In this document: positions 88 through 25,317 of the stretch, piece by piece
Numbering within the stretch: the stretch's first letter is position 1
How the letters are laid out: each line of letters begins with the position of its first letter
From: a virus
Length of the DNA: 25,317 nucleotides
Strand: one strand, 5' to 3'
IMG/VR virus record: IMGVR_UViG_3300013286_000658
Coordinates: 1-25,317 of that record
Translations under genes and position numbers: made by a program
The notes under the pieces: generated by a model
Databases searched by the model: none
What the model saw: only the letters and a program-made list of their open reading frames with translations
Told to the model about the DNA's origin: nothing

Positions 88-942
88 ATGACTGATTATT
101 ACCAAACACTAGGTGTTAGCGAAAATGCTAGCCCAGACGAAATAAAAAAAGCATATAGAACTTTGGCTAATAAACATCATCCAGACAAGGGTGGGGATCA
201 AGCCAAATTCAAAGATATTAGTGTTGCCAACGATATTCTAGGCGACCCACAAAAACGTGCCGAGTATGACCAACAGAGGAGATTTGGTGGTGGCCCGCAA
301 GTAAGATTTACCACTGACGGATTTGATCCATTCGGTGCAATGTTTGGCCAACAATTTCCACAAGGACATCCTTTTGGAGATATATTTGGTCAAATGCATC
401 GACAACGCAGAAATAGAGACCTTAATATACAATGTCAGATTACATTGTTAGATAGTTTTCAAGGCAAACAATTAGAAGCACAATATCAATTACCTAGTGG
501 TCGTACACAAACTGTAGTCATCAATGTACCGGCTGGTATCGATCACGGATCGACTATACGTTATCCCGGATTAGGTGACGATAGTACACCCGGTGCTCCA
601 CGTGGGGATTTAAATGTTACTATTTTAATTCAACCCGATCGCAACTTTGAACGTAGGAACGATGACTTGTATACTACTGTAGAAATAAGTCCAATCGAAG
701 CTATGCTAGGTTGTAGGAAAGCTGTAAAAACCATTACAGGTTCTACAATAGAATTAGAAATTCGTGCAGGTGTAGAAACTGGAGTAGAATTTGCCAGCGC
801 CGGACAAGGATTTCAAAACGTAAATCATCAAGTTAAGGGCAGATTTGTAACTGTGGTTAAAATAAAAACGCCTACTATAAGAGATCCGGCATTAATAACT
901 AAACTGAGGGAATTAGATGTTCTCATTAGTCAAAGATCCTAA
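88..942 (+). CDS. DnaJ/CbpA-like co-chaperone (class B J-protein)
   Basis: This is a 284-residue J-domain co-chaperone that would stimulate the host Hsp70 (DnaK) ATPase and deliver substrates to it. Residues 1-65 form a complete J domain with the diagnostic HPD at 31-33. A short Gly/Phe-rich linker follows (about 66-105, with repeated FG and GG), then the two-part beta-sandwich substrate-binding region (about 106-275). The CxxCxGxG zinc repeats of class A DnaJ are absent, so it resembles CbpA, slightly shorter. The start is fixed because the J domain begins directly at the ATG. The likely ribosome site GGAG (70-73) is unusually far, 14 bases upstream. It is the first gene of the operon and its last 26 bases overlap the deformylase gene. 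Most phage J-proteins I know of are only fragments, so a full-length one is uncommon. Confidence 0.92.
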   Translation: MTDYYQTLGVSENASPDEIKKAYRTLANKHHPDKGGDQAKFKDISVANDILGDPQKRAEYDQQRRFGGGPQVRFTTDGFDPFGAMFGQQFPQGHPFGDIFGQMHRQRRNRDLNIQCQITLLDSFQGKQLEAQYQLPSGRTQTVVINVPAGIDHGSTIRYPGLGDDSTPGAPRGDLNVTILIQPDRNFERRNDDLYTTVEISPIEAMLGCRKAVKTITGSTIELEIRAGVETGVEFASAGQGFQNVNHQVKGRFVTVVKIKTPTIRDPALITKLRELDVLISQRS

Positions 943-1405
943 TCCAATTCTAAAACAAGAAGCGGAGAATTGGGATTTTAATCAACATGTCAATGCCGGA
1001 GTAGTCGAGCAAGAAATGCTCGACACAATGAATTCATTTAATGGCATCGGACTAGCCGCAAACCAAGTTGGATTACTACGCAGAGTATTTGTTATGCGTA
1101 CACAAGACGGCAGACAATTTGGATGCTTTAACCCATGGATCATGTTCGGCGATAACGATTTAATCGAAGACCGAGAAGGATGCTTGAGTTTTCCAGAACT
1201 ATGGCTCAAAGTCTCTCGCCATAATAAAATTACTGCCGGCTATCTTGACAATACCGGAAAACCGTGTATAATAGAATTAGAAGGCATTGATGCAAGATGC
1301 TTCCAACATGAACTAGATCATTTAAATGGAATTACATTTACAGAACATGTAAGTGCATTAAAATTACAAATGGCACGAAAGAAACAGAGGAAACTAAATG
1401 GTTGA
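917..1405 (+). CDS. def: Peptide deformylase
   Basis: This metalloenzyme removes the N-formyl group from nascent proteins at the ribosome. All three family motifs are present: GIGLAANQ (residues 43-50), EGCLSFP (87-93, with metal ligand Cys89) and HELDH (131-135, with two metal-binding His and the catalytic Glu). At 162 residues it is about the usual length for a bacterial deformylase, and it carries a short basic tail (ARKKQRKLNG). The ATG at 917 follows GAGGG at 906-910 at a good distance and lies inside the end of dnaJ. The stop overlaps the clpA start by 8 bases, so all three genes look translationally coupled. Deformylases are known from T4-like cyanophages. Placement between a J-protein and a Clp unfoldase is consistent with a nascent-chain processing role. 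Confidence 0.95.
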   Translation: MFSLVKDPNPILKQEAENWDFNQHVNAGVVEQEMLDTMNSFNGIGLAANQVGLLRRVFVMRTQDGRQFGCFNPWIMFGDNDLIEDREGCLSFPELWLKVSRHNKITAGYLDNTGKPCIIELEGIDARCFQHELDHLNGITFTEHVSALKLQMARKKQRKLNG

Positions 1406-3686
1406 ACCAAGCGACAATTTGCAATTAGTATTCGAAAAAGCAATCGAAACTGCAAAACAAAATAATCACGAATACTTAACGATCGAACATTTATTGTTTG
1501 CCATGCTGTGCGAAGAAGCATTTTCAAACACTATCCAAGGTTACGGAAGCGACCCGGAATTTATTAAAAAGAATCTCGAGCATTATTTAAAAAATAAGTG
1601 CGACGAAATTACTGCGGCTGGTCCTGTAGTTAAACCTAAGAAAACACAAGCAGTCGAACGTGTGCTTAACAAAGCATTTACACAAGTGCTGTTTAACGGA
1701 CGTCAAAAGATTGAACCTGCCGATGTATTCCTTGCCATGATGGGCGAGAAACGTAGTTGGGCACATTTTTATATTGCACAAGCAGAGATTGACAAAGATA
1801 AGTTTGCTGATTATTTGAATAACAGCATCGAAACTCAAGATGAAGAAGAACCTGACATGGGTTCTGCACAAGGAAACAAAGCTCTGAAAGCATTTACTAC
1901 TAATCTTAACGAGCAAGTTAAGAAGAATAAAATCGATCCTGTAATTGGTCGAATTGACGAATTAGAAAATGTTGCGCTGGCTATGGGACGTCGTAGTAAA
2001 AACAACGTAATCCTTGTTGGAGATCCTGGAGTAGGTAAGACTGCTATTGCAGAAGGACTTGCATACAATATTGTCAAAGGCGCAGTTCCCGACTTTCTCA
2101 AAGAATATAGTGTTTATAATCTAGACATTAGTGCCATGCTTGCAGGCAGTAAATATCGCGGCGATTTTGAAGAACGATTTAAAATGGTTCTTAAAGGACT
2201 TGCTACAAAAGGCAAAACTATTTTGTTTATCGACGAAGCGCACATGATTAGTGGTGCGGGTTCAGCAAGCAATAGTGCTAACGACTTGTCTAATATGATG
2301 AAGCCAGCACTGAGCAAAGGTACTATCAAAGTTATCGCAAGTACTACATGGGAAGAATATCGTAAACACTTTGAAAAGGACCGTGCATTAATGCGCCGCT
2401 TCCAACGCATCACAGTTGACGAGCCTACTCAAGAAGTTACATTGCAGATCCTTAAAGGAATTAAAAAGTATTATGAACAGTTCCATAATACCAAGATTAA
2501 AGATGATGCGCTACTAACTGCAATTAAGTTAAGCGTGAAATATCAATCAGATAAGAAATTGCCCGATAAGGCCATCGATTTAATCGACGTAGCATGTTCC
2601 CGCTTTAATTTAAAGCTAGCAGAAGAACGTGTTGTTTCTTCAGAAAGTATTCAATATGAACTTTCTAAAATGATTAACATGCCAGAAGAGCAGGTCGCAG
2701 AGCAAGAAAGCGAAAATCTGGTTAACTTAGAATCCAAGTTGTCTACAGAAGTATACGGCCAGGATCTTGCTATTACAGAAATTGTTGATAAGATTATGGT
2801 TGCACAAGCTGGCCTTAAATCAGAGAACAAACCTGTTGGTAGCTTTGTGTTCATGGGCCCGACTGGAACTGGTAAAACTGAAACTGCTAAGAGTTTAGCT
2901 AAGAACTTAGGTGTTAAGTTGCTACGTTTTGATATGAGTGAATATCAAGAAAAGCATAGCATTAGTAAATTAATCGGTAGTCCTCCAGGGTACGTTGGAT
3001 TCGAAGAAGATGCTGGTCAATTGATTACTCAGATCCAAGAAGCTCCCAATGCTGTATTGTTACTAGATGAAATTGAAAAGGCTCATCCAGATGTAATGAC
3101 AGTATTGCTACAACTAATGGATAACGGTTCTATTACAGGATCTAACGGCAAGAAAGCAGACTGTCGAAATATTATTCTTATCCTTACTACTAATGCCGGT
3201 GCAAGCGATGCTGAAAAGAACGCAATTGGCTTTGGCGGGCAAGAAAAAGAGTATAGCGATAAGGACTTAAAGAAGTTTTTAACTCCTGAATTCCGTAATC
3301 GCTTAGATGGTATTGTTACATTCAATAAACTTGGTAGAGATACTATGGTTAAGATTGTTAACAAGTTTATCGACCAACTTAAAGAACAAGTTAAAGACAA
3401 GGCAGTGCGTATCAAAATTGATAAAGAAGCTGTTAATTGGCTTATCGATAAAGGATTCGATGCTAAGATGGGTGCTCGTCCGTTGCAACGTGTCATTGAC
3501 AAGGAAATTAAACGTGACCTTGCTAAACTCATGTTGTTTGGAGAGTTGAAGAAAGGCGGCTGGGTAACTATTACTATTGACGATGATAAAATCGCTCTTG
3601 CAGTAAAACCTAAGACTCCTAAATTACCGTTTGCGGCTTCCGAGTCGGCGAACATAAGTATTGTAGATGATATACAAGGAAACTAA
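1398..3686 (+). CDS. ClpA-like AAA+ unfoldase with two ATPase modules
   Basis: This 762-residue Clp/Hsp100 ATPase is almost exactly the length of E. coli ClpA. The N-domain occupies about 1-140. The first AAA+ module has Walker A GDPGVGKT (208-215), Walker B LFIDEAH (276-282), the pore-loop region KYRGDFEER (252-260) and an arginine-finger segment (ALMRRFQ, 330-336). The second has Walker A GPTGTGKT (487-494), a LLLDEIEKAH Walker B and a ClpA-type C-terminal domain (FTPEFRNRLD-like, GARPLQRVI). There is no long coiled-coil M domain, so it is ClpA-like and not ClpB. An IGF tripeptide at 610-612 sits where ClpA carries its ClpP-docking loop, so the protein could feed substrates to host ClpP. 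The start follows AGAGGA at 1386-1391. No clpP is seen in the window. Confidence 0.92.
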   Translation: MVEPSDNLQLVFEKAIETAKQNNHEYLTIEHLLFAMLCEEAFSNTIQGYGSDPEFIKKNLEHYLKNKCDEITAAGPVVKPKKTQAVERVLNKAFTQVLFNGRQKIEPADVFLAMMGEKRSWAHFYIAQAEIDKDKFADYLNNSIETQDEEEPDMGSAQGNKALKAFTTNLNEQVKKNKIDPVIGRIDELENVALAMGRRSKNNVILVGDPGVGKTAIAEGLAYNIVKGAVPDFLKEYSVYNLDISAMLAGSKYRGDFEERFKMVLKGLATKGKTILFIDEAHMISGAGSASNSANDLSNMMKPALSKGTIKVIASTTWEEYRKHFEKDRALMRRFQRITVDEPTQEVTLQILKGIKKYYEQFHNTKIKDDALLTAIKLSVKYQSDKKLPDKAIDLIDVACSRFNLKLAEERVVSSESIQYELSKMINMPEEQVAEQESENLVNLESKLSTEVYGQDLAITEIVDKIMVAQAGLKSENKPVGSFVFMGPTGTGKTETAKSLAKNLGVKLLRFDMSEYQEKHSISKLIGSPPGYVGFEEDAGQLITQIQEAPNAVLLLDEIEKAHPDVMTVLLQLMDNGSITGSNGKKADCRNIILILTTNAGASDAEKNAIGFGGQEKEYSDKDLKKFLTPEFRNRLDGIVTFNKLGRDTMVKIVNKFIDQLKEQVKDKAVRIKIDKEAVNWLIDKGFDAKMGARPLQRVIDKEIKRDLAKLMLFGELKKGGWVTITIDDDKIALAVKPKTPKLPFAASESANISIVDDIQGN

Positions 3687-13957: not shown

Positions 13958-16624
13958 ATGAGCTATGTAGACGCATGGTTTGACCGTGATAATGACGTTA
14001 TCAAAGTAGTCGAACGCAACAAGAAAGGTGAAAGGGAATTTAGAGATATTCCTGTACGCCACACATTTTATTATTCAGACCCTCGCGGTAAGTATCAAAG
14101 CATTTACGGCGATCCTCTTGGCAAGATTGTAGTTAAAAGTACCAAAGAACTACGCAAAGAACAAGCCATACACAGCAATCAAAAGTTATTTGAAAGCGAC
14201 ATCAATCCAATCTTTTCGTGCCTAAGCGAAAACTATCTTAACGCAGATGCTCCAAAACTACATGCGGCATTTTTCGATATTGAGGTAGACTTTGATCCAG
14301 AGCGTGGCTATGCTAGTCCAGACGATGCATTTATGCCAATCACTGCGATTGCAGTTTACCTACAGTGGATGGAAACTATGATATGCTTGGCCATTCCTCC
14401 AAAGGGTGTTAAGATGGAGGATGCCAAAGAAATGGTCAAAGACTTTCCTAATACATACTTGTTTGAAAAAGAAGGTGAACTGTTAGACATGTTCTTAGAC
14501 TTGATCAAAGATGCAGATATATTAAGTGGTTGGAACAGCGAAGGTTTCGACGTACCATACACAACTAACCGTATTACCAAAGTATTAAGCAAAGAAGATA
14601 CCCGTCGGTTCTGTTTGTTTGATCAATTGCCAAAGAAACGTGAATATGAAAAGTTTGGCCGGCTTGCCACAACATATGACTTTATAGGCCGTGTACATTT
14701 GGATTATCTTGAACTATATCGTAAGTACACATATGAAGAACGACATTCATATAGGCTGGATGCTATTGCCGAGTATGAACTAGGTCAACGTAAGACACAG
14801 TATGAAGGCACATTAGATCAGTTATACAACAACGACTTTCGTACATTTGTAGAATACAACATCAATGACTGTAAACTACTCGACGATCTGGATAAGAAAT
14901 TGAAATTCTTAGATCTTGCCAACACACTAGCACATGAAAACACAGTACTGCTACAAACTACAATGGGGGCCGTGGCTGTAACTGAACAAGCTATTATCAA
15001 CGAAGCACATCGTAGAGGTTTCCAAGTTCCTAATCGTACTAAAATGGATGATAGGGAGAACAGTGCGGCAGCTGGTGCGTATGTGGCTGTTCCTAAAGAA
15101 GGAATACATGATTGGGTTGGGTCCCTGGATATTAACAGTCTTTATCCTAGTGCCATTAGAGCACTTAACATGGGGCCAGAAACTATTATCGGTCAGTTGC
15201 GACAAACAATGACTGATGAATATATCGAAAATAAGATGGCAAAAGGCTCTAGTTTTGCGGCCGCTTGGGAAGGTATGTTTGGCAGTGTAGAATACACAGC
15301 AGTAATGAATCAAGAGATTGGAACTGAAATTACTATCGACTGGGAAAATGGCGATAGCGATGTGCTAAGTGCGGCTGAAGTGTATAAGCTAATATTTGAC
15401 AGCCATCAGCCGTGGATGTTAAGTGCTAACGGCACAATTTTCACTTATGAGAAAGAAGGTATTATCCCTGGACTGTTAAAGCGTTGGTATGCTGAACGTA
15501 AAGAGATGCAGGCCAAGCTCAAAGAGTGTATTAAAACAGGGAATAAAATTGAAGAAGAATACTGGGACAAGCGACAGCTCGTCAAAAAGATTAACCTTAA
15601 TAGTTTGTATGGTGCCATTCTTAACAGCGGTTGCAGGTTTTTTGATAAGCGTATTGGGCAGTCGACTACACTAACAGGTCGACAAATTGTTAAACATATG
15701 GCAGGTAAGGTCAATGAGATTGTAACCGGCGAATATGATTATCGTGGTAAGGCAATTATCTACGGTGATACTGACTCCTGTTATTTTTCAGCATTTAAGA
15801 CACTACAAAAAGATATTGACAATGGCAATATCGAATGGTCTAAAGAAAATGTAATTGCACTGTATGATAACATTGGCGAAGAAGTTAATACTACTTTCCC
15901 GCAGTTTATGTTGGATACATTCCATTGTCCAAAGACACGTGGAGAAGTTATCAAAGCAGGTCGAGAAATTGTTGGAAGTAAAAGTTTGTTTATTACTAAG
16001 AAGCGTTACGCTGTGTTGTATTACGACAAAGAAGGCAAACGTGCAGACGTAGATGGTAAGCCAGGTAAGATCAAGGCCATGGGCTTGGATCTAAAGCGTA
16101 GTGATACTCCAGAATTTATTCAAAACTTTTTAAGTGATGTACTTGAAATGGTACTGATGGGTAAGCCTGAACAAGAAGTTTTAGATGCAATCAGTGAATT
16201 CCGTCTAAGATTTAAAACTAGACCTGGATGGGAGAAAGGTTCGCCTAAACGTGCAAACAAAGTTACGGAATATCAAGCCAAAGAAGCCAAAGCCGGTAAG
16301 GCCAATATGCCAGGACATGTACGTGCTAGTATTAATTGGAATACACTAAAGCGTATGTTTGATGACAAATACAGCATGAACATTACAGACGGTGCTAAAG
16401 TTATTGTTTGCAAATTGAAAACTAACCCGCTTGGATTTACTAGCGTTGCATATCCAGTAGACGAATTGCGTTTGCCACAATGGTTTAAAGATTTGCCATT
16501 TGATCACGCAGAAATGGAACAGACTATTATTGACAACAAGTTGGATAACTTGATTGGCGTACTAAACTGGGACGTTCGTAGTACAGAAGAAAAGAATACT
16601 TTTAATAATTTATTTGAGTTCTAA
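13958..16624 (+). CDS. 43: Replicative DNA polymerase, family B (T4 gp43-like)
   Basis: This is an 888-residue replicative polymerase with proofreading exonuclease, close to T4 gp43 (898 residues). The exonuclease has FDIEVDF (Asp107, Glu109), SGWNSEGFD (Asp198) and YNIND (Tyr300, Asp304). The polymerase has motif A DINSLYPS (Asp391), motif B KKINLNSLYG (543-552) and motif C YGDTDS (602-607, with Asp604 and Asp606). All metal-binding acids are present, so it should be active. The start follows AGGAG at 13948-13952. No inteins or splits, which do occur in T4-like polymerase genes, are seen. It is likely co-transcribed with dsbA from 13569, and a dehydrogenase gene follows one base after its stop. 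Confidence 0.97.
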   Translation: MSYVDAWFDRDNDVIKVVERNKKGEREFRDIPVRHTFYYSDPRGKYQSIYGDPLGKIVVKSTKELRKEQAIHSNQKLFESDINPIFSCLSENYLNADAPKLHAAFFDIEVDFDPERGYASPDDAFMPITAIAVYLQWMETMICLAIPPKGVKMEDAKEMVKDFPNTYLFEKEGELLDMFLDLIKDADILSGWNSEGFDVPYTTNRITKVLSKEDTRRFCLFDQLPKKREYEKFGRLATTYDFIGRVHLDYLELYRKYTYEERHSYRLDAIAEYELGQRKTQYEGTLDQLYNNDFRTFVEYNINDCKLLDDLDKKLKFLDLANTLAHENTVLLQTTMGAVAVTEQAIINEAHRRGFQVPNRTKMDDRENSAAAGAYVAVPKEGIHDWVGSLDINSLYPSAIRALNMGPETIIGQLRQTMTDEYIENKMAKGSSFAAAWEGMFGSVEYTAVMNQEIGTEITIDWENGDSDVLSAAEVYKLIFDSHQPWMLSANGTIFTYEKEGIIPGLLKRWYAERKEMQAKLKECIKTGNKIEEEYWDKRQLVKKINLNSLYGAILNSGCRFFDKRIGQSTTLTGRQIVKHMAGKVNEIVTGEYDYRGKAIIYGDTDSCYFSAFKTLQKDIDNGNIEWSKENVIALYDNIGEEVNTTFPQFMLDTFHCPKTRGEVIKAGREIVGSKSLFITKKRYAVLYYDKEGKRADVDGKPGKIKAMGLDLKRSDTPEFIQNFLSDVLEMVLMGKPEQEVLDAISEFRLRFKTRPGWEKGSPKRANKVTEYQAKEAKAGKANMPGHVRASINWNTLKRMFDDKYSMNITDGAKVIVCKLKTNPLGFTSVAYPVDELRLPQWFKDLPFDHAEMEQTIIDNKLDNLIGVLNWDVRSTEEKNTFNNLFEF

Positions 16625-16625
16625 T

Positions 16626-17396
16626 ATGAAAATAATAGTTGCAGGTTACGGGTTTGTTGGCAAAGCGGTTGCTAATGTTCTTAAAGAGCATCATCATGCT
16701 GTTATTGTCGATCCACAGTATACTACAAATGAAATAAAATATCATTTAGATGCTGATGCTATTGTCATTTGTGTCAACACTCCTACTGGAGAGAACGGTA
16801 TTATCGCCGAGAATTTAGCAAACGTAATGGACCAAGTTCCAATATACATGCCTGTACTCGTTAAAAGCACCGTTACTCCAGCAGTAGTTGATACATTTAA
16901 TCAATTATATCCAGATCATAGTATATGTTATAGTCCAGAATTTTTAAGAGCTAAAACAGCAGATCAAGATTTTTTAAATCAAAAGTATGTTGTAATTGGT
17001 GGAGAAGATCCAGAAAGTTTTTGGCATGAATTATTTTTGCAAGTATTGCCTAATTGTAAAATAGTATTCAATTGTACAGCAGAAGAAGCCTGTATGGTCA
17101 AATATACTGCTAACTCATTCCTTGCACTTAAAGTTAGTTTCTTTAATCAAATTTTTGATCTGTGTCAAAAAGCAGGTATCGACTATGACACAGTTAGACA
17201 CATTGTAAGTCAGGATACAAGAATTGGATCAGGACATACTCTAGTTCCAGGGCCCGACAATAGTCGAGGCTTTGGCGGTGCATGTTTCCCCAAAGATACA
17301 GAAGCACTAGTACATTGGGCCAAGCATGTTGATGCAGTTCCAAGTTTGGTAGAATTCGCTATCCAATACAACAACAAAGTAAGAAAAATCTCTTGA
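16626..17396 (+). CDS. Short UDP-glucose/GDP-mannose-type nucleotide-sugar 6-dehydrogenase
   Basis: This is a 256-residue NAD-dependent enzyme of the family that oxidises UDP-glucose or a related sugar nucleotide to the uronic acid. The Rossmann motif GYGFVG (7-12), CVNTPT (49-54), VKSTVTP (79-85), YSPEFLRA (102-109), the helix with Lys159 and Asn163, and FGGACFPKD with catalytic Cys220 are all visible. Family members are usually about 390-450 residues. Here the protein stops soon after the catalytic loop, so the C-terminal sugar-nucleotide-binding domain is missing. The ATG at 16626 is preferred because the protein then begins directly with the first beta strand. Its stop overlaps the next promoter's -35 box. 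Activity without the third domain is uncertain. Confidence 0.85.
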   Translation: MKIIVAGYGFVGKAVANVLKEHHHAVIVDPQYTTNEIKYHLDADAIVICVNTPTGENGIIAENLANVMDQVPIYMPVLVKSTVTPAVVDTFNQLYPDHSICYSPEFLRAKTADQDFLNQKYVVIGGEDPESFWHELFLQVLPNCKIVFNCTAEEACMVKYTANSFLALKVSFFNQIFDLCQKAGIDYDTVRHIVSQDTRIGSGHTLVPGPDNSRGFGGACFPKDTEALVHWAKHVDAVPSLVEFAIQYNNKVRKIS

Positions 17397-17439: not shown

Positions 17440-18171
17440 ATGAAAGATATTTTACAAGACCTAGTAGCACATACACACTCACTAGGATTTTTGCCAATCG
17501 TTAAGATTAGCAGTGATGACAGTGAAACAGTTATTGAAGGCATGGCTGAAGACCGTTCAGTTATCCTACAAGGAAAAACTAAAAATGCAGTGCCGGTATT
17601 CACGGGCGTGTTTGGTATGCCTAATTTGAATAAATTAGACTTGCATCTGAAGTGTCCAGAATACAAAGAAGGTGCAAGCATTGATGTTGTTACACAACAA
17701 CGTAATGGTGAAGATATACCAACAGGTTTGCACTTTGAAAATGCCACCGGCGACTTTAAAAATGATTATCGTTTTATGAACGAAGCAATTATTACTGAGC
17801 AAATGAAATCTGTCAAGTTCAAAGGCGCACAATGGGTTATTGAATTTGAACCAACTGTTGCAAGCCTACAGCGTTTTAAATTCCAAGCGGCCGCACATAC
17901 TGAAGAATCTACTTTCCAAGTTAAGACAGAAGATAATAATCTGGTGTTTAGTTTCGGTGATGCTAGTACACACGCAGGTAATTTTGTATTCCAAAGCGGT
18001 ATTACTGGAAAACTAAAGCAACCTTGGGCATGGCCTGTACAGCAACTTATCAGTATTTTAAACTTGTCAGGTGAACTAACTATGCGTATCAGTGATCACG
18101 GTGCATTACAAGTTACTGTGGATAGTGGGCTTGCTGAATACAACTATATTCTTCCAGCACAAGCAAAATGA
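17440..18171 (+). CDS. 45: DNA polymerase sliding clamp (T4 gp45-like)
   Basis: This 243-residue protein is read as the trimeric ring clamp that tethers the polymerase to DNA and, in T4, also activates late transcription. Length is near T4 gp45 (228 residues). The middle carries a VFGMPNLNKLDL-type segment like the clamp linker strand seen in T4-like phages, and the C-terminus ends in alternating strands (LQVTVDSGLAEYNYIL) typical of a clamp. No catalytic motif is expected. It has its own early promoter at 17393 and the ribosome site AAGGAG. In T4 the clamp is next to gp44/gp62, but no clamp-loader gene is seen here. The call rests on pattern and context, since clamps conserve little sequence. 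Confidence 0.75.
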   Translation: MKDILQDLVAHTHSLGFLPIVKISSDDSETVIEGMAEDRSVILQGKTKNAVPVFTGVFGMPNLNKLDLHLKCPEYKEGASIDVVTQQRNGEDIPTGLHFENATGDFKNDYRFMNEAIITEQMKSVKFKGAQWVIEFEPTVASLQRFKFQAAAHTEESTFQVKTEDNNLVFSFGDASTHAGNFVFQSGITGKLKQPWAWPVQQLISILNLSGELTMRISDHGALQVTVDSGLAEYNYILPAQAK

Positions 18172-18682: not shown

Positions 18683-19180
18683 ATGGGTGCCGCAAGAGAA
18701 AAAGACCAAGCAGATTTTGACTTGGAAACATTTGTAGATTTATTTGATACTGCTATCAGTTCAGATAATCCAGCCGTACAACGAGCATTAAAAAACTTGT
18801 TGATGATTGCGGCTATTGTCAATGCTGAAGATAAAGAAGCAGGTATGCGTCAGGGTCCGTTGAAAAGAGTATTAGAGGATCAACGAAATATTATTCGCAG
18901 ACTTGACCGTATAGAAGGTGATAAGATTTATCCACAACAACCTACTCCGTATGTGCCGCCTGGGGGTGCCGGAACTCCGTTTGGGCCAGTTCCGTTAGGA
19001 CCATATTATCCTCCAACGCCATTAGCATGGCCTACTACTGGTACAGGTAGTCCACCGCCTAATACTATTTGGTGTAGTTCGCAAAGTGCAAGCTCAACAG
19101 CGTTTGATGATCAATTTACTAGCGATCCAGGTGCCAAGTATGCTACAATATTAGATAAATTGGAAACAAAGGTGTCATGA
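18683..19180 (+). CDS. Unknown protein with helical N-half and proline-rich C-half
   Basis: This is a 165-residue protein. Residues 1-85 are charged and helical (DLETFVDLFDTAISSDNPAVQ and then a KNLLMIAAIVNAEDKE segment). Residues 86-135 are rich in Pro and Gly (YVPPGGAGTPFGP, YYPPTPLAWP) and look disordered. A short tail (ATILDKLETKVS) ends the protein. It shares an ATGA overlap with the TGT-like gene downstream. No function is recognised. Confidence 0.75.
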   Translation: MGAAREKDQADFDLETFVDLFDTAISSDNPAVQRALKNLLMIAAIVNAEDKEAGMRQGPLKRVLEDQRNIIRRLDRIEGDKIYPQQPTPYVPPGGAGTPFGPVPLGPYYPPTPLAWPTTGTGSPPPNTIWCSSQSASSTAFDDQFTSDPGAKYATILDKLETKVS

Positions 19181-20913
19181 ATAAAAACTTAACAGCACAT
19201 CAAAGCGATTACGCATATTTTTTACCAGCAACAAGTGGTTTTTACAGCACGTACATAGGCAAACAAAGGCATGGCAACTATGTTGATCCAGCTCGTATTC
19301 CTGCTAGCTTTGGACCTTTAGGTATTGAAGCAATGAATTATCTAAATCCTAATGCGGCGTTTTACTTTGACCACTGTTTATATTCAGCGGGCCATGCTAA
19401 TTTAGATTTAACTAAACCCGATCCAAGTGAAGATATGTTTCGTAACAGAGATCGTACAACTAGTTGGGTATTAGGCGATTCAGGCGGATTCCAAATTGGT
19501 AAAGGTGTGTGGGAAGGTGAATGGAATGATCCAAACGGACCAGTAGTTGCACAACGTATGGCTGAAGCAGTTGCTCGAGGTATCGAACTAGTTCCGCAAG
19601 TACATCCAACAGGACATCCTAAAACAGATAAGAATGGCAATCCAAAGTATACTAAGATCGACCATGTTAAAATTTATCAAGCTAAATTAGATGCGGCGCA
19701 AAAGAAACGTGAACAAGTTTTAACTTGGATGGACGCACTAATGGATTACGGTATGGTACTTGATATTCCAGCATGGGTTGGACGTAGTCCGGTTGGTGCT
19801 AAAAATAGTGGTGTTAGCAATTATCCGCAGGCTGTTGCGGCAACCAAATACAATAATGAATACTGGATCAAACATCGTACAGGTGCTTGTAAGTTCTTAA
19901 ACGTATTGCAAGGCGAAAGTCACGATCAAGCAGAAGATTGGTATCAGCAAATGAAAGACTTTTGCGATCCAACCAAATATGATAAACCATTTAACGGTTG
20001 GGCCATGGGTGGACAAAATATGTGCGATGTTGACCTAGTACTACGTAGATTAGTGGCATTGAAATTTGATGGACTTCTTGAAAAAGGCCAGCAGGATTGG
20101 ATGCACTTCTTAGGCACCTCTAAATTAGAGTGGGCATTGTTATTAACTGACATTCAACGAGCTATAAGGAAATATCATAATGAAAACTTTACCATCTCTT
20201 TTGACTGCGCCTCGCCATTCCTTGCCACAGCAAACGGTCAAATCTATGTCCAGACAGAAATTACCAACAAAGAAAAATGGCTCTACAGAATGTTGCCGTC
20301 TCTTGATGACAAAAAGTACAGTCAAGACACACGACTCTTCCAAGATGTCGTAGTGCAAGATAAACATTTTGAAGCGTTTACTACAAGTCCATTAATGGAC
20401 GGTGTAGAAGTTAAAGATATTTGTATCTATGGTCCAAATGACATTAACAAAATTGGTAAGGTAGGTAAGACATCGTGGGACAGTTTTACTTACGCAATCA
20501 TGATGGGCCATAATGTATGGTTGCATTTGAACAGCGTACAAGAAGCCAATCGCCAATATGATGCTGGACTTTGTCCTGGCATGTTAGATGTTACTACAGC
20601 TATACCAAAGCCATTTACAGACTACTCTCCATTACCAAATAAATTTAGAGATGTAGTAGATGCTATTTTTAGTGCGTCCGATCGAGATTCGGCGATAGCA
20701 ATTATTGATTATTATGATAAATTTTGGCAAGCTATTCCAGGCACACGCGGTGCCATTGGTAAGAAAACGGTAAATGCCACTACCAAGTATTTCGAATTGT
20801 TTGACGAAGTAGGTGCAGATAGTGTACAATCAGATGACGAAGTAGATTTTGACGAGTCTGCAATTGATAAACTAGACGATTTGGAAGCCAGCGTCCATGA
20901 CATTACCCGATGA
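19177..20913 (+). CDS. tRNA-guanine transglycosylase-like protein (TGT/DpdA superfamily)
   Basis: This is a 578-residue TIM-barrel transglycosylase of the TGT superfamily, whose members exchange guanine for a 7-deazaguanine in tRNA (Tgt, ArcTGT) or DNA (DpdA). DSGGFQ (Asp101 to Gln106) equals the TGT Asp102 motif. MVLDIP (Asp196) sits where the substrate-binding Asp156 is expected. LQG (244-246) and GWAMGG (274-279) match the VQGG and YAIGG loops. FDCASPFLATANGQ places Asp343 at the nucleophile Asp280 of Zymomonas TGT (DCVxPTR-x-RNG). The zinc motif CxCxxC of bacterial Tgt is not visible, and about 200 extra residues, ending in an acidic tail, follow the core. This divergence favours a DpdA-like or other non-canonical role, but the substrate is not proven. 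Confidence 0.78.
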   Translation: MNKNLTAHQSDYAYFLPATSGFYSTYIGKQRHGNYVDPARIPASFGPLGIEAMNYLNPNAAFYFDHCLYSAGHANLDLTKPDPSEDMFRNRDRTTSWVLGDSGGFQIGKGVWEGEWNDPNGPVVAQRMAEAVARGIELVPQVHPTGHPKTDKNGNPKYTKIDHVKIYQAKLDAAQKKREQVLTWMDALMDYGMVLDIPAWVGRSPVGAKNSGVSNYPQAVAATKYNNEYWIKHRTGACKFLNVLQGESHDQAEDWYQQMKDFCDPTKYDKPFNGWAMGGQNMCDVDLVLRRLVALKFDGLLEKGQQDWMHFLGTSKLEWALLLTDIQRAIRKYHNENFTISFDCASPFLATANGQIYVQTEITNKEKWLYRMLPSLDDKKYSQDTRLFQDVVVQDKHFEAFTTSPLMDGVEVKDICIYGPNDINKIGKVGKTSWDSFTYAIMMGHNVWLHLNSVQEANRQYDAGLCPGMLDVTTAIPKPFTDYSPLPNKFRDVVDAIFSASDRDSAIAIIDYYDKFWQAIPGTRGAIGKKTVNATTKYFELFDEVGADSVQSDDEVDFDESAIDKLDDLEASVHDITR

Positions 20914-21142
20914 AAGATACCGAGCAGTAGTACAGACTCAAAGATTTTTATTACAGATCTTAACTACTCCTCGAGTGCCAAAGGCAATCAAAGATCAAGC
21001 AAGAAGTTGTTTGCGTCATTATCCTAGCGATTGGGATATGGACCGTGCATCGGAAGGTGCTCCGGACATATTTGCTAAACGTATGGAAGATGTAACTCGA
21101 ATGTTTAAAAAATACGAAGAGAGTAAAAATGAACAAACGTAG
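20897..21142 (+). CDS. BPSL0761-type small protein
   Basis: This is an 81-residue protein that begins with MTLPDERYRAVVQTQRFLLQ, continues with a TPRVPKAI segment and has CLRHYPSDWDM at 38-48. I recognise this as the pattern of the BPSL0761 family, small proteins of unknown function known mainly from Proteobacteria. The start lies inside the end of the TGT-like gene, with GGAAG upstream at a good distance. It ends in a charged helix (RMFKKYEESKNEQ). If the family call is right, it hints that the host, or a past donor, is a proteobacterium. The function is unknown. Confidence 0.7.
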   Translation: MTLPDERYRAVVQTQRFLLQILTTPRVPKAIKDQARSCLRHYPSDWDMDRASEGAPDIFAKRMEDVTRMFKKYEESKNEQT

Positions 21143-22013
21143 TCTTATTGTAGGCATGGGTATTGGACAGTTATATAAGACTGTACTAGAAAAACTTGGC
21201 TATACAGTTATTACAGTTGATCGAGATCCTAGCAAAGGTGCAGATTTTGATTCGGTTGACAGCGCATTGTTAGTACATGGTTTATTTGATACTGCACACA
21301 TTTGTACTCCTAATTTTACGCATTTTGAACTTGCGGCTAAAGTTGCGCCCTATACTAAAATTGTGTTTATTGAAAAACCCGGTGTTGCTACTAGCGATAC
21401 ATGGATTAAACTAGTAACTACGTTTACACAAACACGTTTTATTATGGTTAAAAATAATATGTGGCGTAGTAATGTTAACGAGCTAAAAGAATTAGCCAGT
21501 CGAGCTAATACTGTAGATATATTTTGGTCTAGAAAAAACTGTATTCCTAGTCCCGGTAGTTGGTTTACTACTAAAAAGTTGGCGTTCGGCGGTGTTAGTA
21601 GAGATTTAATGCCACATTTGTTAAGCCTGTATGTGGCAATGAATCCGGATTGGCGATCAGAACAAATAACCGGAAAGCAAGCATTACGATTACATACGTT
21701 AGAAAGCATCAAAAGTACCGAATATGGAACTATAAACCCTAATGGAACATACGATGTAGATGATCGTTGCCATATAATATTTGGTAGTAAATGGACTTTA
21801 CTAGCAGATTGGGCTAATATGCATGAAGATAATAGTTCTATTAAATTTACCATGGAAGATAGTACTATAGAGCGTTTTGAATTAGGCTGGTGTCCCGAAG
21901 ATGCGTATGAATCTATGATTAAAGAAGCAGTTGACCACATGTACGAAGCTGATTTTTGGAAACATCAATACATAATCGATACATGGATACATGAAAGAAT
22001 AGAATCCCTATGA
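21129..22013 (+). CDS. Gfo/Idh/MocA-family oxidoreductase
   Basis: This 294-residue NAD(P)-dependent dehydrogenase belongs to the family acting on sugars, inositols and sugar nucleotides. The nucleotide-binding start is SLIVGMGIGQLY (GxGxG at 9-13). The family signature EKP is at 82-84, and GGVSRDLMPH places Asp159 and His163 at the usual catalytic pair. It is somewhat shorter than typical members (about 330-350). The start overlaps the previous gene by 14 bases, and the stop overlaps the alcohol dehydrogenase start by 4. The pairing with an alcohol dehydrogenase suggests consecutive redox steps on one substrate, probably a sugar or sugar nucleotide. The substrate cannot be named from sequence. 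Confidence 0.85.
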   Translation: MNKRSLIVGMGIGQLYKTVLEKLGYTVITVDRDPSKGADFDSVDSALLVHGLFDTAHICTPNFTHFELAAKVAPYTKIVFIEKPGVATSDTWIKLVTTFTQTRFIMVKNNMWRSNVNELKELASRANTVDIFWSRKNCIPSPGSWFTTKKLAFGGVSRDLMPHLLSLYVAMNPDWRSEQITGKQALRLHTLESIKSTEYGTINPNGTYDVDDRCHIIFGSKWTLLADWANMHEDNSSIKFTMEDSTIERFELGWCPEDAYESMIKEAVDHMYEADFWKHQYIIDTWIHERIESL

Positions 22014-22909
22014 TAGTTAGATGTTTACAGACAACAGGGCAAGGTTATTTCGAAGAAGTATCTTACGATAAACCCGAGCCAAATTCATTAGAGCTCGAAG
22101 TTCGCACTATTATGACTGGTGTATGTCGCAGTGACATTGATATGATGCAAGGTAATTTTGGACCACTGCCGTTAAGTATGCAAGGTCACGAAGGATTAGG
22201 CGAAGTAACTAAAGTCGGTGCAGGTATTCTCGGAGTTAAAGTAGGAGATATCATTGCAACACGAGGAGAGCCTGCGTATGCAGACTTTTATAATGTACGT
22301 TATAATGAATTTGTACGTGTTCCATTCGCCGATCCAAAGTTTATACTTGAACCAGTGGCATGCGGTATTAATCTCATTAACCAAGCTAAGACATTAATTA
22401 AAAAGAAACAAGGAATTGAATCCAAAATGCTTATACTAGGCAGTGGATTCCTTGCGTGGGTCGCTTATCATACCATGCGACTGAATGGATACATCTACCA
22501 AGTAGATGTTCTAGGGTCTAATAACTTGGATTTATGGAAAGATCGACTGTTAATGGGCACTACCGAAAGTTATGATGTAGTTGTCGATGTTAGCGGAAAA
22601 TATCAATTAGGTACTGACATTAATCTAAATAACGATGCACTTGTTATCGATGCAGTTGGAAAGCCTATTAATAAAGCAGAAGCAGATCATTTGCTTTGGA
22701 AAGCCGTTACTACTGTAAGACCTAGTCCACGCACTGAAGAATTTATTAAGTGTATGCATTTTGCCAAACACTGGATTGAAAACGGCTATTTAGAGGTTGA
22801 TTCTTTTTGGACAAAAGCATATAATAGAAATATAGAGTGGCAACAAGCGTTTGCGGATGGTATGGATCGTCCGAACGGTTACAGCAGAGGTTATATCATA
22901 TGGGACTAA
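22010..22909 (+). CDS. Medium-chain zinc-type alcohol/polyol dehydrogenase
   Basis: This is a 299-residue medium-chain dehydrogenase. The catalytic zinc ligands are visible as Cys39 (GVCRSD) and His60-Glu61 (GHEGLGEV), with Glu114 in LEPVACG. The Rossmann motif ILGSGFLAW is at 142-150. The lobe that holds the four-Cys structural zinc is absent, as in some polyol-dehydrogenase relatives, and the protein is about 40-50 residues shorter than usual. The C-terminal part (DVVVDVSG...LVIDAVG) keeps the family fold. It is coupled by ATGA to the Gfo/Idh/MocA gene. Its stop lies 10 bases inside the next gene. The substrate is unknown. Confidence 0.85.
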   Translation: MIVRCLQTTGQGYFEEVSYDKPEPNSLELEVRTIMTGVCRSDIDMMQGNFGPLPLSMQGHEGLGEVTKVGAGILGVKVGDIIATRGEPAYADFYNVRYNEFVRVPFADPKFILEPVACGINLINQAKTLIKKKQGIESKMLILGSGFLAWVAYHTMRLNGYIYQVDVLGSNNLDLWKDRLLMGTTESYDVVVDVSGKYQLGTDINLNNDALVIDAVGKPINKAEADHLLWKAVTTVRPSPRTEEFIKCMHFAKHWIENGYLEVDSFWTKAYNRNIEWQQAFADGMDRPNGYSRGYIIWD

Positions 22910-23843: not shown

Positions 23844-24104
23844 ATGGCTAAGAACTACAAAGAAATTAACTATTTCGAAACCCGCCCCGATATCGTCAAA
23901 ATTTTTGACGATTTAGAATCCTTTCATGACTGGTGCCGTATTGAAATGGCTCCTTTCGACGAATCATACCTCTATAATAGAGACAGTTGGGCCTGGCGTA
24001 ATTATGAAAAATCACGCAGACCTAAAAAGCCATTTACTGGGGAACGTAAACCTTACTTAGGTAAGAATCCACGTCACACTACAAATGACCGTTTTTCTAA
24101 TTGA
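23844..24104 (+). CDS. Small conserved phage protein of unknown function
   Basis: This is an 86-residue protein preceded by the ribosome site AAGAGG. The middle (SFHDWCRIEMAPFDES, then a YNRDSWAWRNYEKSRRP segment) is rich in aromatic and charged residues and resembles small proteins I recall from T4-like cyanophages. The basic C-terminus (RRPKKPFTGERKPYLGK) could contact nucleic acid. The end overlaps the glycosyltransferase start by 20 bases. No function is known to me. Confidence 0.78.
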   Translation: MAKNYKEINYFETRPDIVKIFDDLESFHDWCRIEMAPFDESYLYNRDSWAWRNYEKSRRPKKPFTGERKPYLGKNPRHTTNDRFSN

Positions 24105-25185
24105 TTTAGAAGCAGTTGAAACCAGGTACACGGGTCAGTGGAAGACTCATGTGCCTGCTCTCTTACGAAAGGCGGGACACAATGTTCAAATTATCTCTGG
24201 CCCTGAGGATATTCCTACAGCCACTACTCCTGGTGCTTTTCTTAATTTTGGTGGCACCAATATATACAAGTCTCGACAAGTTGAGCAAATGGGCCGTTTA
24301 TTTTGTAGCGGATCCGTTCATCCTGGCGACCACTTTATTTTTACTGACGCTTGGCATCCGGGCATTATAAACTTAAAGTATATGAGTGAGTTACTGGGCA
24401 TCCCGGTGACAACACACGGCTTGTGGCATGCTGGTAGTTATGACCCACAAGACTTTTTAGGACGACTTGTTGGTAATAAACCTTGGGTTAGACACGCAGA
24501 ACAAAGTTTTTTCTATGCGTTTGATCATAATTATTTTGCTACTAAGTTTCATATTGAATTATTCCACAAAGAGTTGCTCAACGGCGGATTTCAAACAGAA
24601 AATCCCTGGTATGAGGAAGAGCTAGGTGAGATCTTAGCAGGTGAATATCCTAAAATTGTTCGTAGCGGATGGCCAATGGAATATATGGGGTCGACCCTTA
24701 CTGCATACAAGAACATGCCCAAGCGTGACCTTATACTGTTTCCTCATCGCATAGCGCCAGAGAAGCAGGTTGATATCTTTCGTGACTTGGCTATACACTT
24801 GCCACAATATGAATTTGTAGTATGCCAGGATCAACAGCTGACAAAGAATGAATATCATAATTTGTTGGGCGAAGCTAAAATGGTGTTCAGTGCCAACTTA
24901 CAAGAAACACTGGGCATCAGTTGTTATGAAGGTGCAGTGGTTGATGCTATACCGTTAGTACCGGATCGGTTAAGCTATACTGAAATGTATTACGATACAT
25001 TCAAGTATCCTAGCGTATGGACTGAAAGTTTTGAAGCATACAAAGTACATCGTCCTAATTTATGTTTTGCAATCATGCAACATATTGATAATTACATCAC
25101 ACGTATTCCACAGATTCGTAAACAAACACGCCAACTAACTGAAAACTTTTTCTCAGCACACACTTTGTTAGAAAGATTAAAATGA
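24085..25185 (+). CDS. GT-B-fold glycosyltransferase (family 1/4-like)
   Basis: This is a 366-residue protein with the two-domain GT-B layout. The C-terminal half has LFPHRIAPEKQVDIF (a glycosyltransferase family 4-type donor-side loop) and NLQETLGISCYEGAVVDAIPL, which resembles the E-x7-E acceptor and donor motif, followed by a PDRLSYTEMY loop. The N-terminal half has a FLIDLEAVETRYTGQW strand-loop and a TDAWHPG segment. Similar enzymes occur in T4-like cyanophages. Targets could be phage DNA bases, virion proteins or host glycans; the neighbouring sugar-nucleotide dehydrogenases suggest a link to donor supply. The ATG lies inside the previous gene and the stop overlaps the next start by 4 bases. 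Confidence 0.82.
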   Translation: MTVFLIDLEAVETRYTGQWKTHVPALLRKAGHNVQIISGPEDIPTATTPGAFLNFGGTNIYKSRQVEQMGRLFCSGSVHPGDHFIFTDAWHPGIINLKYMSELLGIPVTTHGLWHAGSYDPQDFLGRLVGNKPWVRHAEQSFFYAFDHNYFATKFHIELFHKELLNGGFQTENPWYEEELGEILAGEYPKIVRSGWPMEYMGSTLTAYKNMPKRDLILFPHRIAPEKQVDIFRDLAIHLPQYEFVVCQDQQLTKNEYHNLLGEAKMVFSANLQETLGISCYEGAVVDAIPLVPDRLSYTEMYYDTFKYPSVWTESFEAYKVHRPNLCFAIMQHIDNYITRIPQIRKQTRQLTENFFSAHTLLERLK

Positions 25186-25317
25186 TACTCAATTTGTTAG
25201 AACGCCTAGATCGCAAACGTATTATCATGGATCGACAACACAACGAACCCTTGCTAACTCGTTATTATCTTTTTTTAAAAGAACGCAAGACGTTTCCATT
25301 CAATATATTTTTGCACA
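25182..25317 (+). CDS. 5' part of a gene cut by the window edge
   Basis: An ATG overlapping the glycosyltransferase stop (ATGA) opens a frame that continues to the end of the window (45 codons). The visible N-terminus is basic (MILNLLERLDRKRIIMDRQ, then RYYLFLKERKTFPFNIFLH). The phrase RYYL-LK-RK-FPFN-FLH recalls small cupin-like phage proteins that continue with a His-rich metal site, but that part lies outside. The product cannot be assigned from what is visible. Confidence 0.7.
   Translation, partial: MILNLLERLDRKRIIMDRQHNEPLLTRYYLFLKERKTFPFNIFLH

Follow-up and report, generated by a model that had tools for sequence, protein, structure and literature searches.

A predicted DpdA-type DNA guanine transglycosylase branch from a freshwater giant phage, linked to a GT4 glycosyltransferase

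7-Deazaguanines are known to protect the DNA of other phages (PMC6884629). Among the enzymes of this kind, DpdA2, represented by that of Vibrio phage nt-1 (YP_008125322; Hutinet et al. 2019, PMC6884629), has a TGT-like fold without a zinc motif, is linked to FolE, QueD and QueE and, in some phages (ACP17, X1, BUCT-ZZ01), has a GT4 glycosyltransferase as a partner. DpdA1 of Enterobacteria phage 9g, an enzyme of about 300 aa, likewise has no zinc motif and is encoded beside a sliding clamp and 7-deazaguanine genes. Here we describe a gene carried by a freshwater giant phage, in a window (the whole stretch of DNA analysed) of 25,317 nucleotides. The encoded enzyme and its family resemble DpdA2 in all of these respects, and the DSGG(F/L)Q, base-site D, Q-G, H-x-LG and nucleophile regions can be aligned between them. 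However, the window family is a separate, well-supported clade, and the window protein has an internal insertion and a longer tail. It shares the gene context and missing zinc motif of DpdA1, but has no detectable sequence similarity to it. Bacterial Tgt and archaeal ArcTGT are the best structural matches, with the same catalytic residues and a zinc-site His that the window protein has kept. In contrast to these, the window protein has no CxCxxC, is not recognised by PF01702 and falls in a separate clade, and its relatives coexist with normal Tgt in bacteria. The window gene probably represents a new branch of DpdA-type DNA guanine transglycosylases.

Active site, fold and the zinc motif

The gene (19177-20913, + strand) is an intact ORF of 578 aa, running from ATG to TGA, and its product is a predicted DNA guanine transglycosylase of the TGT superfamily. 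An earlier note on this DNA had picked out Asp101, Asp343 within FDCASP, and the LQG and AMGG loops, all of which are present in the ORF. D101, matching the catalytic Asp of TGT, opens the DSGGFQ motif (19477-19494, +; D101 codon 19477-19479), the predicted nucleophile D343 is encoded at 20203-20205 (+), and LQG and AMGG occupy residues 244-246 and 276-279. In an alignment of 35 sequences, including relatives down to 24-30% identity, D101, D196, Q245, G274 and D343 are invariant. Profile comparison placed Q245, G274 and D343 on their Tgt counterparts, and D101 and D343 on those of DpdA2. By alignment, the five residues correspond to the Tgt positions for catalysis, base binding and nucleophilic attack, roles that are established for TGT enzymes and would hold here as well.

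The AlphaFold model of the protein (pLDDT 85.6) found its top structural match in 2ash (Z 19.1, 301 residues, 4.2 A), and all 50 structural matches listed belong to the TGT family (TGT, ArcTGT or QTRT1). The sole Foldseek PDB match at E<=0.001 was ArcTGT 1iq8. Together with the invariant active-site columns, this best match to the TGT fold bears out the proposed superfamily identity. Among viral models (BFVD), Foldseek retrieved the DpdA2 of Vibrio nt-1 (E 1.8e-8) and also a TGT of phage Motura. Using hhalign, the family profile matched DpdA2 (P 2.8e-10) and Tgt (P 1.5e-8); similarity to DpdA1 was not significant even profile to profile. The window protein had no family match in Pfam, PHROG or NCBIfam, PF01702 and phrog_10773 included, and PDB sequences searched by phmmer and by profile gave chance matches only. 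Searches of the window protein against DpdA2 by tblastn found nothing from either side; with similarity at profile level only, the protein falls outside the sequence family of nt-1 DpdA2. Enzymes whose activity on DNA is proven are only remotely similar in sequence.

Structure comparison assigned residues 6-472 of the model to the TGT-like part. The tail that follows is partly of low confidence (pLDDT <50 for 524-559) and accounts for the long C-terminal extension that had been described, but some of the extra length is internal, in an insertion of ~60 residues (about 112-172) missing from the Paride homologue. The zinc site was rightly reported as not visible: CxCxxC is absent from the window protein and present in 10/10 Tgt references. 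A zinc-ligand-type His is retained, H445 of an 'HN' pair that matches the conserved HN of Tgt, and the three Cys are gone. The motif is also absent from all 12 phage references for DpdA1 (9g, CAjan, RHEph06, Typha, Dp-1, CRB2) and DpdA2 (nt-1, K567, pf16, BUCT-ZZ01, ACP17, Moby). Its absence is therefore usual for phage DpdA, and was rejected as an argument for novelty. A relative in phage PhiXhv-12 carries a CTCPIC motif.

Phylogeny and distribution

A maximum-likelihood tree of 42 rows, 27 of them family members from phages and bacteria, set the family apart from both Tgt (100/99) and DpdA2 (100/99), with a support of 99/98 and long branches. The earlier note had proposed a new branch and named placement inside ordinary bacterial Tgt as an outcome that would speak against it; the family lies outside the ordinary Tgt clade and outside DpdA2. 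Bacterial rows formed two groups, one of which includes the homologue of Sinorhizobium phage Phosso. Judged against Tgt, DpdA1 and DpdA2, the branch is apparently uncatalogued among DNA guanine transglycosylases. Neither the family nor a glycosylated 7-deazaguanine in DNA was found described in the literature searched; the further derivatives that Cui et al. 2023 reportedly describe lay outside that search.

Thirteen of 50,697 phage records contained relatives when searched by tblastn. Eleven are Pseudomonas jumbo phages of the PA5oct/Paride type (32% identity), and the others are Vibrio phage 2.275.O (28%) and Phosso (27%). All 13 homologues are annotated as hypothetical proteins. IMG/VR holds at least 597 relatives, and since 597 of the 599 pattern matches listed encode relatives, the family is far from a chance assemblage. 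The best 80 of these share about 77-97% identity with the window protein and lie on contigs of up to 383 kb. The branch is common in environmental phage contigs as well as being present in cultured jumbo phages. Moreover, GTDB genomes contained 38 loci with relatives. Some of these appear to be phage contigs that were binned into MAGs, and others are proteobacterial chromosomal islands (about 24-38% identity). PF01702 detected no Tgt in the phage records with relatives, including the 356- and 383-kb contigs. A normal Tgt is also carried by all 12 bacterial genomes tested that have a relative, which identifies the bacterial copies as extra, island-borne paralogues.

Neighbouring genes and the proposed DNA modification

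A sliding clamp homologue (phrog_12062; 17440-18171, +), homologous to Phosso gp221, which is annotated as a sliding clamp, precedes the TGT gene. In 79/79 viral loci, as well as in Paride, Vibrio 2.275.O and Phosso, a clamp homologue is found no more than 1.6 kb upstream of the TGT gene, and the DpdA1 genes of 9g, CAjan and RHEph06 are also close to a clamp gene. A family B DNA polymerase (13958-16624, +) provides further replication module context, and the clamp adjacency may reflect this module alone. Elsewhere in the window (88-3686), genes for DnaJ, a peptide deformylase and a ClpA/B-like ATPase stand in a row with overlapping ends.

The link to 7-deazaguanine synthesis suggested by the DpdA-like assignment holds in close relatives, Paride and Phosso, through FolE, QueE and QueD, and in Vibrio 2.275.O through QueC and QueF too. 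FolE is found downstream on the same strand in 24 of 25 close-relative loci with room, and in most of those with room it is part of a FolE-QueE arrangement. By contig, FolE occurs in 11/13 close relatives and QueD in 7/13, QueD being located elsewhere. Matches to phrog_2076 (QueE, E 2.4e-49) and phrog_2389 (QueD) verified these two identities. The window ends at 25317, short of the expected place of FolE, and as it is a 25-kb fragment, FolE, QueE and QueD are known only from its relatives. The relatives of 356 and 383 kb have neither QueC (PF06508) nor QueF (PF14489). Paride carries FolE, two QueD and QueE, and Phosso FolE, QueD and QueE, with neither QueC nor QueF in either phage. In Vibrio 2.275.O, QueF comes two genes after the homologue; next are a YhhQ-type transporter, QueC and FolE, and QueD lies farther along. 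FolE can also serve folate. The QueE proteins of two loci (L187:1249-2106, L081:19454-20326) have an interrupted Cys motif, GCNFKC followed after ~40 residues by GCDS, common to Paride and PhiXhv-12. Each of the large phage relatives (L180-L196; G001, G002, G004, G013) has at least 10 radical-SAM genes, often clustered, which is unusual for phages.

Downstream of the TGT gene, the window encodes a GT4-type GT-B glycosyltransferase (GT) of 366 aa (24085-25185, +). Although its sequence had no family assignment above the cut-off, its model (pLDDT 91.7) has a GT-B fold, with GT4 enzymes as top matches at Z 24-25 (sucrose-phosphate synthase 24.9, BshA 24.6), and the EX7E motif is intact, with E274 and E282 conserved. 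Wherever viral loci extend far enough (38/38), the GT follows the TGT gene on the same strand. A tblastn search detected the GT in only 19 of the 50,697 phage records, and every one of the 19 has a gene for a TGT-family enzyme; these records are not independent, representing at least six phage lineages that are. Six lineages with the GT (the window clade, Paride, Phosso, ACP17, X1 and BUCT-ZZ01) have FolE-QueD-QueE without QueC or QueF, and QueC occurs without the GT in Vibrio 2.275.O, nt-1, K567, pf16, Moby and 9g. However, PhiXhv-12 has a divergent GT two genes downstream of a Gat-QueC. Strict replacement of QueC by the GT was therefore rejected and is a tendency rather than a rule; the association of the GT with 7-deazaguanine chemistry stands despite this exception. 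The Gat-QueC gene of PhiXhv-12 (PV764601.1, L205:5819-7342; SGGMDS, CxxCxxC, TIGR00364 E 2.6e-38) is annotated as L-glutamine-D-fructose-6-phosphate aminotransferase.

Taken together, our best explanation, which we consider likely, is that the phage enzyme is a DNA guanine transglycosylase of a new DpdA-type branch. A farther-reaching reading, to which we give a probability of roughly 0.45, is that it inserts 7-carboxy-7-deazaguanine (CDG) or a close derivative into DNA, that the GT4 enzyme then glycosylates this base, and that in proteobacteria the TGT and GT genes are likewise paired in chromosomal islands for modification or defence, together with a queuosine-precursor transporter and a partner protein. 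The phage FolE, QueD and QueE would make CDG, which the host may convert to the derivative that is used. By TGT chemistry, nucleophilic attack of D343 on the glycosidic carbon of a guanosine would release guanine, with D101 as general acid/base and D196, Q245 and G274 binding the base, and the 7-deazaguanine would take the place of guanine. The substrate is predicted to be DNA rather than tRNA, and the adjoining sliding clamp gene suggests that newly replicated phage DNA would be acted upon. In the window phage and most relatives, the co-conserved GT4 enzyme may decorate the inserted base with a sugar, for which gene linkage gives about even odds. Such DNA would be hidden from restriction and similar defences. 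As the TGT gene occurs together with genes for base synthesis and sugar transfer, the phage DNA is probably armoured with a modified, perhaps sugar-coated, base.

The sugar step is where the closest competing explanation departs, sharing all else at its core: the enzyme would insert a 7-deazaguanine into DNA in plain DpdA fashion, and the GT4 enzyme would act elsewhere, on the cell surface or a virion glycan. We consider this a serious though somewhat less probable account. Glycosyltransferases and sugar genes are frequent in phages, GT4 acceptors are very varied, and in the window clade the GT is ~3 kb from the TGT gene, with sugar-type dehydrogenases between them. These are a GFO/IDH/MocA-type oxidoreductase (21129-22013, +), which might supply the sugar donor, though this is only a guess, and an alcohol-dehydrogenase-like protein (22010-22909, +). 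Against this, the 43% GT homologue of Paride is the very next gene after the TGT gene, the GT adjoins DpdA2 in ACP17 and X1 and is near it in BUCT-ZZ01, in Phosso it adjoins FolE with QueE nearby, and the PhiXhv-12 copy is two genes from Gat-QueC. Moreover, the bacterial islands hold the GT with a queuosine-precursor transporter. As a side observation, a UDP-glucose-dehydrogenase-like gene (16614-17396) lies on the other flank of the TGT gene from the two dehydrogenase-type genes, and in PhiXhv-12 a GFO/IDH-type gene also follows the GT (L205:9057-9905).

It is unlikely that the enzyme is instead a phage tRNA guanine transglycosylase that modifies tRNA of the host or the phage in the course of infection, in the manner of ordinary Tgt. 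Fold and active site are the same as in Tgt, and queuosine genes found in some DpdA-less phages may act on tRNA (PMC6884629), but the separate clade, the clamp adjacency, the Tgt already owned by the hosts of bacterial relatives, and the GT and queuosine genes held in common with DpdA2 phages (ACP17 and X1, for example) all argue against this. A role in protein deazaguanylation or counter-defence like that of Cap10 of type IV CBASS is very improbable: Cap10 (9ntn) does appear, weakly, in the Foldseek list (E 0.17), but the full TGT active site is retained, the gene is linked to base synthesis genes and neither a CdnD nor a Cap9 partner was seen in the window.

Glycosylation of an inserted 7-deazaguanine would have a functional analogy in the queuosine mannosyltransferase QTMAN which, like QTGAL, adds a sugar to a 7-deazaguanine base in animal tRNA (PMC12518689); the predicted acceptor of the window GT is a 7-deazaguanine in DNA. 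It would also parallel the glucosylated hydroxymethylcytosine of T4. The earlier note had suggested a new base or substrate; the conserved GT4 partner makes a further-modified base a concrete and testable prediction, namely hypermodification of DNA built on 7-deazaguanine, and the cultured phages Paride/PA5oct and Phosso put it within reach of testing now. The Paride paper, searched by keyword, did not mention DNA modification. The GT4 partner, the clamp adjacency and the bacterial islands are additions to what had been noted before.

Proteobacterial islands

Eight islands (L104, L107, L110, L115, L117, L118, L121, L122) combine a GT, the TGT-like gene and a queuosine-precursor transporter, assigned to TIGR00697 in L107. 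The island-borne TGT-like copies adjoin integrase genes. We regard the islands L094-L123 as candidates for new Dpd-like modification or defence islands. In these (e.g. L117:8246-13072; L094:8319-11344), the TGT-like gene is paired with a protein of one of two families, C2 or C4, never both in a locus. The two families are homologous to each other (P 2e-7); a clamp-like nature was considered for them and is unsupported (P 0.0017 and 0.015). A few of the islands also carry a C5 DNA-methyltransferase-like gene.
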